Assembly (NCBI GenBank): GCA_028277445.1
Contig: JANQGG010000028.1
Coordinates: forward strand, 62,001-126,000
Source of the DNA: Chloroherpetonaceae bacterium
GTDB lineage: Bacteria; Bacteroidota; Chlorobiia; Chlorobiales; Chloroherpetonaceae
Length of the DNA stretch: 64,000 nucleotides
Direction of reading: 5' to 3'
The position numbers and the translations under genes were made by a program. The notes below the pieces were generated by a model. The model was not told the DNA's origin. It searched no databases and saw only the letters and a program-made list of their open reading frames with translations. Shown here one piece after another: positions 38,476 to 62,528 of the stretch. The stretch's first letter is position 1. The number at the start of each line of letters is the position of its first letter.

Positions 38476-39152
38476 TTTGTACTGTCGAATTGCGCCTCTC
38501 ACACCACCGTGTCCTTCGGCTTAGCTCAAGATAAACAAGGCGGGTCTTACTGAATCAAATTCGGATAGGCTATATGCGGCGGTTCATTAACCTTTGGCAA
38601 CGTCTCTTTTAGTTACTGTGTTCCTCTTCATGACGGGCTTGACCGGGACTATGACTCTGCTTTACATCCTCAATCATCCCAACTTAACTCGGAACGGCTA
38701 ATGTTCTACCCTTCTCCTGATCTACCAATAATCAGGATACTATGTCTGGCTTCTGCTGATTTCTCAACATGGCTGCCGAGATATCCCTGGCTGGGTAAGG
38801 CGCTTATCCTTAAAGTCTTTGACGGCTGCATCTACACAGCATTGTTTATTGGCTACGGGCTTCGTAAAGATGTGGTTACTTACCCACAATGTTGCGCCTC
38901 TTATGCAATTCCTGTTCGTCCGTATAGACTCTCGCAGTTTTGCTTCCTTCAGACTTCCGGTCACACGAAACGCCCTTGCATCTTACTAATGGACTTTGCC
39001 AACTCGCCCATAATGAATTTGCATCCTCAGGATAACCTGTGTTATCTTCCTTAAATGAATTTAACACGTGCCTTATCGGGCACACATAAATCACTGCACT
39101 GGATTTTTATTCCGCTGCGCTCCCTAAAAACCAGTGAGTTCGACAGTTCGAT
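38476..39152 (+). other. attC site interrupted by a group II intron remnant
   Basis: The left arm ACTGTCGAA (38481-38489) is complementary to TTCGACAGT (39139-39147). Inside it, CACTGG-A-TTTTTA (39097-39109) pairs with TAAAAACCAGTG (39125-39136) with one bulged A, an attC-like extrahelical base. R' is GTTCGAT (39146-39152). About 600 bases of intron-like sequence split the left arm. The coding content of 38248-38475 is unclear: a plus-strand frame runs through it but matches nothing I know, and it may be the 3' end of a lost cassette gene. Confidence 0.55.
38490..39085 (-). mobile_element. Group II intron remnant lacking its reverse transcriptase gene
   Basis: On the minus strand a GUGYG-type 5' end (GTGTGCCCGATAAGG, 39085 to 39071) is followed by a structured region of about 300 bases. 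Then comes the sequence AATCAGCAGAAGCC...CATAGTA, typical just ahead of intron-encoded reverse transcriptases. The 3' part holds ACGGTGGTGTGAGAGG (38495-38510), typical of the end of domain IV/V. Nearly the whole reverse transcriptase frame is missing, so it cannot move by itself. It lies opposite to the cassettes inside an attC, the arrangement described for group IIC-attC introns. Confidence 0.6.
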
Positions 39153-41435: not shown

Positions 41436-42029
41436 ATGGCAACAGGTGAACTTCAAACCCTACTAGGTTTTTTCAATGCTTTGGCCAACGAAAATCGACT
41501 CAAGATCCTGGGTATCTTGGCCAACCGTGAGTGTAGCGTGGAAGAGTTGGCAACACTTCTAGATTTAAAGGCACCTACTGTGTCCCATCACTTGAGCAAG
41601 CTGAAAGAGCTTGGACTAATAGGTATGCGCCTGGATGGCAATGATCACCTACATCGACTGAACCCAGAAAGCTTGCTGGCAATGAGCAAGGAGGTCTTCA
41701 GTTCCTTCACTCCAGAGAAGGTAGCTACCTTGGGCAACGATGCGGAGTATGATACTTGGGAACGGAAGGTGCTGAGCAACTTTCTGGAAGAGGGTCGCAT
41801 CAAAGCTATTCCTACTGGTTACAAAAAGCGCTTGGTCGTTTTGAAATGGCTGGTGAATCACTTCGAAGAGGGAGTGAGATACAACGAGGTAGAGGTCAAT
41901 GAAATCATCGAGAGGTATCATCCTGACTACTGTACCCTTCGCCGAGAGTTCATTACCAACAGGTTGATGGAACGTGAAAACAGCATCTACTGGAGAATAG
42001 AATGGCAAATCCCGGAATTAGCTGGGTAG
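41436..42029 (+). CDS. ArsR-family transcriptional regulator with DUF2087 domain
   Basis: 197 residues, preceded by AGGAGGT six bases before the ATG. The N-terminal winged helix (L-A-N-E-N-R-L-K-I-L-G-I-L near residue 16, T-V-S-H-H-L-S-K-L-K-E-L-G near 47) is ArsR-like. The C-terminal part (G-Y-K-K-R-L-V-V-L-K-W-L near 127, then R-Y-N-E-V-E-V-N-E-I-I) matches DUF2087, a combination usual in stand-alone regulators. No metal-site Cys pair is evident. It lies in the 2-kb segment between the 68-bp repeats, upstream of a DinB-family gene that it may regulate. The stretch 42030-42289 shows no gene. Confidence 0.85.
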   Translation: MATGELQTLLGFFNALANENRLKILGILANRECSVEELATLLDLKAPTVSHHLSKLKELGLIGMRLDGNDHLHRLNPESLLAMSKEVFSSFTPEKVATLGNDAEYDTWERKVLSNFLEEGRIKAIPTGYKKRLVVLKWLVNHFEEGVRYNEVEVNEIIERYHPDYCTLRREFITNRLMERENSIYWRIEWQIPELAG

Positions 42030-43012: not shown

Positions 43013-44323
43013 TTAATACCGGTAGTGCTCAGGTTTAAATGGTCCTTTCACATTTACCCCAATGTAGTTGGCTTGTTTTTCATTCAACGTATCGAGTTCA
43101 ACGCCAATTTTAGCCAGATGCAATTGGGCAACTTTTTCATCAAGAAACTTTGGCAACGTATAAACTTTATTTTCATACTTTTCAGGGTGGTTATAAAGTT
43201 CAATCTGAGCCAATGTTTGGTTTGAGAATGAGTTTGACATGACAAACGACGGATGACCGGTCGCACAACCCAGGTTCATCAATCGGCCCTGTGCAAGCAC
43301 AATAATGTCTTTACCATCAATTGTGTATAAATCAACCTGTGGCTTGATCTCATTTCGCGTACCGCCGTAATTATTGTTTAACCATGCCATGTCAATTTCG
43401 GTATCGAAATGGCCAATGTTGCTTACAATACACTTATCTTTCATTGAACGGAAATGGCGCTCGGTGACGATATCGCAGTTACCGGTTGCGGTAACCACAA
43501 TGTCGGCTTCTTTGACCGCATCATCCATTTTTTTAACTTCGTAGCCTTCCATTGCCGCCTGAAGCGCGCAAATCGGATCGATTTCGGTGACGATCACACG
43601 AGCGCCGGCGCTTCGGAGCGATTCGGCCGAACCTTTCCCAACATCGCCATATCCGGCAACTACAGCCACTTTACCGGCAATCATTAAATCCGTTGCACGA
43701 CGAATGGCATCCACACAGGATTCACGACAACCGTATTTATTATCAAATTTAGATTTGGTTACCGAGTCGTTGACATTAATGGCAGGAATGTTGAGCGTGC
43801 CTTTTTTCTCACGTTCGTAAAGACGAAGCACACCTGTCGTGGTTTCTTCGGATATGCCTTTAATGCCTGAAGCAAGTTCGGGGAATTTTTCAAAGACCAT
43901 TTCGGTAAGATCGCCGCCATCATCCAAAATCATGTTCAGAGGCTGACCGTCTTCAAAAAATATGGTTTGTTCGATACACCAGAAGAACTCTTCTTCGCTC
44001 ATTCCCTTCCAGGCATAAACCGGCACGCCTGCCGCAGCAATGGCAGCCGCTGCGTGATCCTGGGTTGAGTAGATATTACAGGACGACCATGTAACTTCGG
44101 CGCCTAACTCAATCAAAGTCTCAATTAAAACGGCGGTTTGAATGGTCATATGTAAACAGCCGGCAATACGAGCGCCTTTTAAAGGCTGTTGGGCTTTATA
44201 TTCTTCACGGATTTGCATTAAACCCGGCATTTCCGCTTCAGCCAACCGGATTTCTTTACGTCCCCATTCTGCCAGTGAAATATCTTTAACTTTATATTGT
44301 AATTTTTTCTCTTGAGTCGTCAT
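43013..44323 (-). CDS. ahcY: Adenosylhomocysteinase (SAH hydrolase)
   Basis: 436 residues, full length. NAD-binding [11 protein letters not shown] near residue 225 and the C-terminal [11 protein letters not shown] ending are diagnostic. It splits S-adenosylhomocysteine into homocysteine and adenosine, clearing the product of methylation reactions. It is 44 bases downstream of metK in one operon, so synthesis and recycling of the methyl donor are controlled together, probably through the leader upstream of metK. Confidence 0.97.
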
Positions 44324-44367: not shown

Positions 44368-45570
44368 TTATTTAAACGCCTGCTTCAATTCATCCACTTT
44401 ATCTGTTTTTTCCCAAGGGAAAATATCTCTTCCAAAATGGCCATAGGCAGCGGTATCCTGGAAGCACCATCCAGATGGTTTATTCAACCCAAATCCTTCA
44501 ATAATAGCAGCCGGTCTCAAATCAAAAATTGATTCAACTTTTTCCTGGATATCGGCATCTTTCATTCCGTTAACCGCTGTTCCATGCGTATCAACAAAGA
44601 TGGATACAGGACGTGCAATACCGATGGCATAGGAAACCTGGATCGTGCAACGCTCAGCCAAATCAGCAGCAACCACATTTTTAGCAATATAACGAGCCGC
44701 ATAAGCCGCGCTTCTATCAACTTTCGATGGGTCTTTACCGCTAAATGCGCCGCCGCCATGAGGAGCTGCGCCGCCGTAAGTATCCACAATAATCTTTCGT
44801 CCGGTTAAACCTGTATCACCATGAGGTCCGCCTACTTCAAACCGTCCGGTTGGGTTAACAATAAATTTAGTTTTATGATCAATTAGTTCTTCAGGAATGA
44901 CTTTACGGATCACACAGCCAATGACATCTTCTTTAATTCGATTTTGCCATTGCTCTTCATTATAGCCTTCAGCCTCAGGATCGTGTTGCGTTGAAATCAA
45001 AACCGTATCGGCTCGCACAATTTGAGTGCCGTCATATTCTAAAGTCACCTGGCTTTTTGAATCTGGTCGGAGATAATTGATTGAATTTCCATCTTTACGA
45101 ACGTCGGCCAGAGTTTTAACTAAGTTATGTGCGTACTGAATGGCTGCCGGCATAAGTTCCGGGGTGTCTTTACAAGCAAACCCAAACATCAAGCCCTGGT
45201 CGCCGGCGCCAATGCGATCTAATGGATCAGGGATTTCTTCTTTACGATCAACACCTCGGTTAATATCAGGCGATTGCGCATGAAGGGCCGATAAAATACC
45301 GCAAGATTCAGCATCAAATTTATATTCTGACTTTGTGTAACCAATTTTTGTAATGACCTTTCTGACGAGGGTTTCTACATCAACATTTCCTTTGGAAGTT
45401 ACTTCACCACCAACTACCACTAGACCTGTGGTACAAAACGTTTCACATGCTACGCGAGAATTCGAATCCTGTCGTAAATAATCATCAAGCACTGCATCAG
45501 ATATTTGATCAGATACTTTATCCGGATGCCCCTCTGAAACGGACTCTGAAGTAAATAAAAATCTTGCCAT
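44368..45570 (-). CDS. metK: Methionine adenosyltransferase
   Basis: 400 residues. Signatures [10 protein letters not shown] near residue 125 and [14 protein letters not shown] near 270, with the N-terminal [11 protein letters not shown]. It makes S-adenosylmethionine from methionine and ATP. It is the first gene of the operon, behind a structured leader with an intrinsic terminator that could attenuate transcription. Confidence 0.98.
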
Positions 45571-45614: not shown

Positions 45615-45649
45615 AAAAAAAAAGCCTTCAGCTTTTTATGGCTAAGGCT
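45615..45649 (-). terminator. Attenuator-type terminator in the metK leader
   Basis: Minus-strand hairpin AGCCTT...AAGGCT (45649-45644 and 45628-45623) followed by nine T, about 45 bases before the metK start, so it lies upstream of the gene it would block. The loop segment AAGGCT at 45728-45723 could compete for the first arm and act as an antiterminator. Confidence 0.7.
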
Positions 45650-45760
45650 ACCTAACAATGCTAAAACTATGTCAGGACACGGTACAAAACTCCCAACAAC
45701 GCTGGTGAATTTCATATGCATAAGCCTTTGACACCGTGTCCAAAGATATTGGGAATGTCA
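45650..45760 (-). promoter_or_regulatory. Structured metK-ahcY leader, candidate SAM-responsive riboswitch
   Basis: Minus-strand order: TCCCAA (45754-45749), GGACACGGT (45741-45733), loop, TTGGGA (45696-45691), ACCGTGTCC (45683-45675). The 9-bp and 6-bp helices cross, forming an H-type pseudoknot, a shape used by some SAM-binding RNAs. Chlorobi metK-ahcY operons are known to carry a SAM-Chlorobi RNA motif in this place. I cannot align to its consensus here, so identity is inference. A possible promoter (TTTGGA near 45801-45796, TATATT near 45777-45772) lies upstream. Confidence 0.6.
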
Positions 45761-45831
45761 AATACGAGGTGAATATATTATAGTATGTTTAATAATCCAA
45801 AGCCGTTCTATTGCAAATGATTGATTTTTAA

Positions 45832-53977: not shown

Positions 53978-54050
53978 CGGGGTATGGCGCAGCTGGTAGC
54001 GCGCCTGCTTTGGGAGCAGGAGGTCCCGAGTTCGAGTCCCGGTACCCCGA
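53978..54050 (+). tRNA. tRNA-Pro (TGG)
   Basis: Acceptor CGGGGTA pairs with TACCCCG. The anticodon arm CCTGC-TTTGGGA-GCAGG gives anticodon TGG. The T-arm GTTCGAG is intact and CCA is not encoded. First of a cluster of four tRNAs. Confidence 0.95.
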
Positions 54051-54059
54051 CATAGTACT

Positions 54060-54133
<74 letters not shown>

Positions 54134-54164
54134 CAACACGCAAAGCTCTTTTAGAATTTGACAT

Positions 54165-54239
54165 GGTGATTGTAGCTCAGCAGGTTAGAGCGCCAGGTTG
54201 TGGCCCTGGAGGTCGGGGGTTCGAGTCCCCTCATTCACC
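54165..54239 (+). tRNA. tRNA-His (GTG)
   Basis: Begins with the extra 5' G characteristic of tRNA-His. Acceptor GTGATTG pairs with CATTCAC (one mismatch). Anticodon loop TTGTGGC, anticodon GTG. Confidence 0.94.
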
Positions 54240-54251
54240 CACACAAATTTT

Positions 54252-54323
54252 GGCCCCATCGACTAGTGGTTAGGTCATCACCCTTTCAAGGTGGAAGCAC
54301 GGGTTCGAATCCCGTTGGGGTCA
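54252..54323 (+). tRNA. tRNA-Glu (TTC)
   Basis: Acceptor GGCCCCA pairs with TGGGGTC. Anticodon loop CTTTCAA, anticodon TTC. T-loop TTCGAAT. Last tRNA of the cluster, followed by a terminator. Confidence 0.95.
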
Positions 54324-62455: not shown

Positions 62456-62528
62456 GCGTCCGTGGCTCAATTGGTAGAGCAACTGACTCTTAATCAGTGG
62501 GTTGAAGGTTCGAGTCCTTCCGGGCGCA
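62456..62528 (+). tRNA. tRNA-Lys (CTT)
   Basis: Acceptor GCGTCCG pairs with CGGGCGC. The anticodon arm ACTGA-CTCTTAA-TCAGT gives CTT, reading AAG. The T-arm GTTCGAG is intact; CCA not encoded. The flanks 62286-62455 and 62529-62732 show no gene. Confidence 0.95.

Follow-up and report, generated by a model that had tools for sequence, protein, structure and literature searches.

A SAM-Chlorobi RNA upstream of metK-ahcY in a Chloroherpetonaceae bacterium: a putative attenuator with a competing downstream helix

Introduction

In the SAM-II, SAM/SAH and preQ1 riboswitches, which are small H-type pseudoknots, the expression platform makes use of the pseudoknot 3′ strand; SAH riboswitches switch genes on. 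The metK-ahcY leader analysed here would work like the former in this sharing of a strand, with no membership claimed: no covariance match to these classes was found in the leader, and the overlap between the P1a and pseudoknot strands is a feature of the SAM-Chlorobi motif. Its fold is also unrelated to that of the SAH riboswitch.

The closest described system is the SAM-Chlorobi motif itself (RF01724), reported by Weinberg 2010 (PMC2864571) as a metK-ahcY leader of the Chlorobiales with an upstream promoter-like element, a P1/P1a hairpin and a pairing of GGACACGG with CCGUGUCC. The hairpin and the pairing recur at the present metK-ahcY locus, together with a candidate promoter-like element. 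The sections of that paper dealing with the motif report in-line probing with SAM and SAH in which no binding was found, and describe no terminator or antiterminator, alternative helix or copies upstream of metH, features that were found or predicted here. A later survey also gives the motif as associated with metK-ahcY only (PMC4239095). In the literature searched, SAM-Chlorobi has remained an orphan motif since 2010: it is conserved beside SAM-cycle genes, and no ligand has been found. A similar set of SAM-cycle targets, here metK-ahcY and metH, is found in the SahR or SAH-responsive regulons of Proteobacteria, the core SahR regulon including ahcY, metH, metF and metK (PMC4239095).

Results

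A SAM-Chlorobi RNA precedes metK-ahcY

The window, that is, the whole stretch of 64,000 nucleotides that was analysed, carries on its minus strand metK (SAM synthetase, 44368..45570, start codon at 45570), named in the original prediction and by sequence resemblance, and downstream of it ahcY (SAH hydrolase, 43013..44323), which adjoins metK in most relatives. The metK of the window is 71–84% identical to the motif-adjacent metK of relatives. The leader is placed upstream of both genes as a potential 5′ UTR of the operon, and every sequence string previously read in it was found again on the minus strand of 45615–45760; unless stated otherwise, all features below are on this strand. A covariance search with Rfam located a SAM-Chlorobi RNA (aptamer-like domain, 45673..45760) with 46.3 bits, so that membership of RF01724 (gathering cut-off 35), raised before as a possibility for this leader of metK-ahcY, is not in doubt. 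No other Rfam model was above its cut-off in the leader region: the matches to SNORA40, PCGEM1 and IS128 were below it and at chance level, no SAM-I riboswitch (RF00162) was among the region matches up to E = 10, and the Rfam SAH riboswitch gave no match in the region.

Elsewhere in the window, a Group II intron D1-D4-3 domain (RF02001, 98.2 bits) was detected at 38800–38970 (minus strand), four tRNA genes are clustered at 53978–54323 (plus strand) and a further tRNA lies at 62456–62528. Downstream of ahcY, an ORF at 41436–42029 (plus strand) resembles by eye an ArsR-type regulator; in Proteobacteria these genes are controlled by SahR, itself a member of the ArsR family.

Promoters of Bacteroidota have a -7 element of consensus TAnnTTTG and a -33 element TTTG. 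In the window, a candidate -7-like element, TATATTCA (45770..45777), matches four of the six fixed positions of TAnnTTTG and lies 9 nt upstream of the motif, with a -33-like TTTG (45798..45801) 20 nt further upstream. Most non-Chlorobiaceae leaders likewise have a TAnnTTTG-like octamer, placed 6–12 nt before the motif, and transcription is expected, from these sequences, to start just upstream of the SAM-Chlorobi motif. The literature search revealed no paper on mapped transcription starts in Chlorobaculum tepidum.

The conserved fold consists of P1, P1a and a pseudoknot

The structure was tested on an alignment of 80 relatives compared to shuffles. The partner hairpin is formed by P1 (TTTGACAT/GTGTCAAA) and P1a (CCAA/TTGG), neither of which was in the original prediction. 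In P1, the 5′ strand UUUGACAU (45755..45762) pairs with the 3′ strand GUGUCAAA (45727..45734), the outer three U-A pairs being read from the window sequence alone. Its five-pair core was paired in 98.8% of cases, with 49 both-side changes versus 10 in shuffled alignments, values that somewhat favour P1 because 12 of the 80 rows had been shifted by one base where this improved it. P1a, with CCAA as 5′ strand (45749..45752; CCAU in most relatives) and UUGG as 3′ strand (45740..45743), was paired in 100% of cases and showed four both-side changes versus 0.1 shuffled; a compensatory change from U-A to A-U was present in three sequences, that of the window included, and a G-C replaced one of those pairs in L090.

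The 9-bp pseudoknot helix of the original prediction proved to be real and to be part of RF01724, as the pairing of GGACACGG with CCGUGUCC. From RF01724 and the alignment, its 5′ strand is GGACACGGT (RNA GGACACGGU, 45733..45741) and its 3′ strand ACCGTGTCC (RNA ACCGUGUCC, 45675..45683), the latter being also the strand contested by the antiterminator proposed below. This helix was 98% paired across the 80 relatives and nearly invariant, so that its covariation is thin (two both-side cells); a variant, GGACGC/GCGUCC, was found in L102. Both G residues of the P1a 3′ strand are common to the pseudoknot 5′ strand and, as P1a, P1 and the full 8-bp pseudoknot share G residues, not all of these pairs can be formed simultaneously. 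By contrast with the pseudoknot, the 6-bp helix formerly proposed between TCCCAA (45754–45749) and TTGGGA (45696–45691) was not conserved, with 33.6% of cells paired versus 31.8% in shuffles of the 80 relatives and only its two outermost pairs recurring. A small terminator-like hairpin, CCAGCGUUGUUGG followed by GAGUUUUG, was noticed inside the aptamer at 45693–45705.

The fold also includes a variable hairpin, P2, and both P2 and the linker differ in length and sequence among relatives. This variability bears on a possible control by a translated leader peptide (translation-coupled attenuation): the window leader can be read in a short frame that begins with ATGAAATTC, but no short frame common to the relatives was seen by eye and the conservation is of structure instead, which makes such a mechanism highly improbable.

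The motif is restricted to one order and also precedes metH in one lineage

RF01724 was found in 87 of the 395 genomes of the phylum, all of them within the order of the window genome, and in no member of the approximately 297 other genomes of the phylum. Within the order, 88 of 98 genomes had a match at E ≤ 0.1, with all nine genera represented. Exact matches to the core were found 14 times among 84,980 genomes, all 14 in Chlorobi. For comparison, genomes were grouped as f1 (with the window genome and G005), f2 (Chlorobiaceae), f3 ('Candidatus Thermochlorobacteriaceae' plus one 'Chloroherpetonaceae' MAG, nine genomes in total, here the Thermochlorobacter group) and f4 (a Chlorobiales MAG).

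In the first set of loci, 86 of 88 were directly upstream of metK, the exceptions being those of G121 and G269, which preceded metH. A second model, R1, was constructed from 30 sequences and used to search the whole order. It matched twice in every one of the nine f3 genomes, once upstream of metK and once upstream of metH. Five R1 matches, L098 to L102, were outside the training set; four of them had E values of 1.4e-8 to 3.9e-6 and L102 one of 0.011. Those metH copies that Rfam scored did not exceed 32 bits, the cut-off being 35, and metH was identified by its N-terminal sequence instead of by family search. No motif was found at the metH of the examined f1, f2 and f4 genomes by searching for GGACAC or, in all but one, with model R1, and the order-wide R1 search gave no further convincing SAM-Chlorobi copies. 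These matches suggest that the motif may also be used to control metH, the methionine synthase gene, in one lineage, the Thermochlorobacter group. The longest leader was an outlier at metK, L006 of G296, in which 256 bases separate the motif from the gene, about 150 bases more than in the other leaders.

Predicted terminators are lineage specific

The U-tailed hairpin originally noticed before metK was upheld by folding. The hairpin AGCCUUAGCCAUAAAAAGCUGAAGGCU (45623..45649), followed by a U tract (45615..45622), has a predicted energy of -9.9 kcal/mol, which was equalled in one of 40 shuffles, and is present in the minimum free energy fold of the whole window leader (z=-2.95). It was not listed by a simple consensus terminator scanner, probably owing to its bulge. 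With a custom scan for a hairpin of ≤ -8 kcal/mol plus a U tract between motif and gene, terminators were predicted in 16 of the 21 non-Chlorobiaceae leaders (Chloroherpeton- and Thermochlorobacter-like) versus 5 of the 75 from Chlorobiaceae, and for most of those 21 leaders none of 40 dinucleotide shuffles was as good. In genus g6, no clear terminator was seen in the metK leaders of G121 and G269 or in the metH leader of G387, and the metK leader of G387 had a poor one only. Because most Chlorobiaceae leaders lack a terminator, terminator coupling is not a family-wide feature.

The pseudoknot 3′ strand has a second potential partner

Folding of nascent RNAs that end at the terminator loop gave, for most of the metK leaders in f1 (G005), f3 and f4, a pairing of the linker and pseudoknot 3′ strand with the pre-terminator stretch and the 5′ arm of the terminator. 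Examples are L037, where GAGAGAAAUUUCCGUG pairs with CACGGAAGCCUUCUC, and L041, where GCGGAAACGCUUUCGUG pairs with CACGAAAGCCUUUUCUGC. In eight of the nine metK leaders tested besides that of the window, this alternative helix had p values of 0.002–0.02. In the window, the proposed antiterminator 5′ strand (45676..45698) and 3′ strand (45640..45662, overlapping the terminator 5′ arm) would form a helix of -10.6 kcal/mol, compared to -9.9 for the terminator, at p=0.20; because this helix is weak, the switch is argued from the family and is least certain for the window leader itself. Against shuffled downstream sequence, p ≤ 0.05 was reached by 47/75 Chlorobiaceae leaders, 7/18 of f3, 1/1 of f4 and 1/2 of f1. 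The helix was at chance in the metH leader of G133 and the metK leader of G387, and not significant in the metH leaders of G121, G129 and G269.

Matched strands were then compared with partners swapped between leaders. Matched partners paired better in the non-Chlorobiaceae leaders (z=-5.9, n=18) and in the Chlorobium-type leaders (z=-5.5, n=32); the small g4 group gave z=-2.0 (n=8), with z=-1.8 for a far control target there. Control segments containing neither the linker nor the 3′ strand of the pseudoknot had |z| ≤ 2.3, mostly < 2. With only the spacer and terminator arm as target, 14 terminator-bearing representatives gave a Fisher p=6e-11 and a swap p=0.0002, nearly all of them with 4–6 pairs in the pseudoknot 3′ strand and 5–15 in the terminator arm. 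The representatives share common ancestry, for which the swap test corrects only by way of the control segments. The analysis of this helix was also exploratory, the helix having first been seen in the sequences then used to test it, with several test variants. Control segments and the sliding of pairs described below answer these points in part.

In an alignment of 42 Chlorobium-type leaders, the alternative helix was 81.3% paired versus 42–60.5% when slid, a test that favours the helix because nine g3 leaders, mostly not fitting the anchor pattern, had been excluded beforehand. Both-side cells numbered 27 versus 14.1 (sd 3.1) in shuffles and the covariation score was 0.216 versus 0.159 (sd 0.013), values reached in none of 500 shuffles in either case; the number of pairs changed on both sides was not unusual (118/500 shuffles). 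RNAalifold predicted the helix unprompted. In addition, the metH leader of G285 (L102) has GGACGC as pseudoknot 5′ strand, GCGUCC as 3′ strand and GGACGC again in the downstream strand before the terminator, where its f3 relatives L091, L098 and L099 have GGACAC, GUGUCC and GACAC. Read from these sequences, this three-strand change is a single event that alters the predicted pseudoknot and the alternative helix at once, which is what the sharing of a strand would require. The comparison of about 100 relatives thus suggests that one strand of the SAM-Chlorobi pseudoknot can alternatively pair with a downstream strand.

The original prediction had also placed terminator/antiterminator logic in this leader. 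Its coupling to a terminator is supported in most non-Chlorobiaceae leaders in a different form, through the linker and pseudoknot 3′ strand, and not through the strand that it had assigned, AAGGCT in a loop. This AAGGCU (45723..45728) is the 5′ strand of P2 and was supposed to pair with AGCCUU of the terminator arm, alongside the TCCCAA/TTGGGA pseudoknot helix. The window does contain this 6-bp match, three metH leaders (L089, L092 and L093) have similar ones, and the broader P2 5′ segment was mildly better matched than swapped in non-Chlorobiaceae leaders, being the largest of the control signals (z=-2.3, p=0.014). However, the window complementarity is at chance (helix p=0.19, duplex p=0.78), matched strands were no better than swapped ones (p=0.95), the match is absent in the nearest relative, G005, and the accompanying TCCCAA/TTGGGA helix is the one not conserved in the alignment. 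AAGGCT was therefore rejected as the antiterminator, and we regard a switch built on it as very unlikely.

Some Chlorobiaceae lack the aptamer

Ten Chlorobiaceae genomes had no motif match, and in eight of these assemblies no metK match was found either. In two Chlorobium-type genomes, G114 (L131) and G339 (L130), metK is present and its leader retains the promoter-like element and the 3′ portion, while the whole aptamer is missing; alignment of the G114 leader to that of G225 shows a gap of 110 bases where the aptamer would be. Such a loss of the aptamer with retention of its surroundings, together with the lack of SAM or SAH binding on in-line probing in the account of the motif in PMC2864571, would fit a leader that senses no metabolite and instead binds a regulatory protein or acts as a stability element or fixed attenuator, the alternative helix being a folding intermediate. 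Against this, members throughout the order have kept the core CCAUUANNUAUGGACACGG and the structure, with two covarying folds in competition, as would be typical of ligand-controlled switches, and the reported ligand tests covered only SAM and SAH. We consider an explanation without a metabolite unlikely, though it deserves more weight than the leader peptide or the AAGGCU strand.

SAM-I riboswitches serve other methionine genes in the same genomes

The SAM-I riboswitch was above cut-off in 88 of the 98 genomes of the order. Like SAM-Chlorobi, it precedes methionine genes, and the window genome is among those that carry both; its fold and its targets, MetY-like and MetX-like genes, are different. 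With gene functions judged by sequence resemblance, four of the five SAM-I loci examined (L125 to L129) preceded a MetY-like gene and one a related sulfhydrylase/lyase gene, and in both f1 genomes and in G102 a gene of MetX-like sequence came next after the SAM-I-linked gene. These five loci, L125 (G000, contig 27) and L126–L129, belong to genomes that use SAM-Chlorobi for metK-ahcY.

Discussion

On balance, we favour, as rather probable, the reading of the metK-ahcY leader as a SAM-Chlorobi attenuator with two exclusive folds, on the Chloroherpeton/Thermochlorobacter side of the order. The leader would fold into the P1/P1a hairpin, the variable P2 and the pseudoknot of GGACACGG with CCGUGUCC. 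In the OFF state, the pseudoknot would hold its own 3′ strand, the U-tract hairpin would form and RNA polymerase would stop before metK. In the ON state, the linker plus pseudoknot 3′ strand would pair with the pre-terminator stretch and the terminator 5′ arm, destroying both pseudoknot and terminator. That the two folds exclude each other in the cell, that they act in this direction and that there is a ligand, we infer.

Chlorobiaceae keep the alternative helix without a terminator, which suggests a different output there, in translation or RNA decay. In this family, the loop of the alternative helix has a conserved sequence, GACAU or GUGAAAU, with complementarity to AUGUCAC at the start of metK. 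Sequestration of the start codon by this loop was tried as an explanation and set aside as an idea only, the pairing being weak (median p 0.29 and 0.055).

A metabolite or factor that stabilises the pseudoknot would repress metK-ahcY, plus metH in the Thermochlorobacter group, whereas the SAH riboswitch activates its genes. Repression through a stabilised pseudoknot is easier to reconcile with SAM or methionine feedback than with activation by SAH, but no SAM binding was seen in the probing reported in PMC2864571. As SAM-I riboswitches are present in the same genomes, a ligand other than SAM would be worth testing for SAM-Chlorobi. A speculative extension, to which we give only slightly more credit than to a leader sensing no metabolite, is that SAM-Chlorobi responds, as a riboswitch, to some compound of the methyl cycle that is neither SAM nor SAH (such as methionine, homocysteine or a signal linked to folate or cobalamin), controlling metK, ahcY and metH where SAM-I serves homocysteine synthesis, with the pseudoknot 3′ strand as antiterminator strand.

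For this orphan motif, a covarying alternative helix and lineage-specific terminators would provide a testable on/off mechanism, in which termination could be used as a read-out for candidate ligands. The copies before metH would extend the targets of SAM-Chlorobi to more of the SAM cycle.
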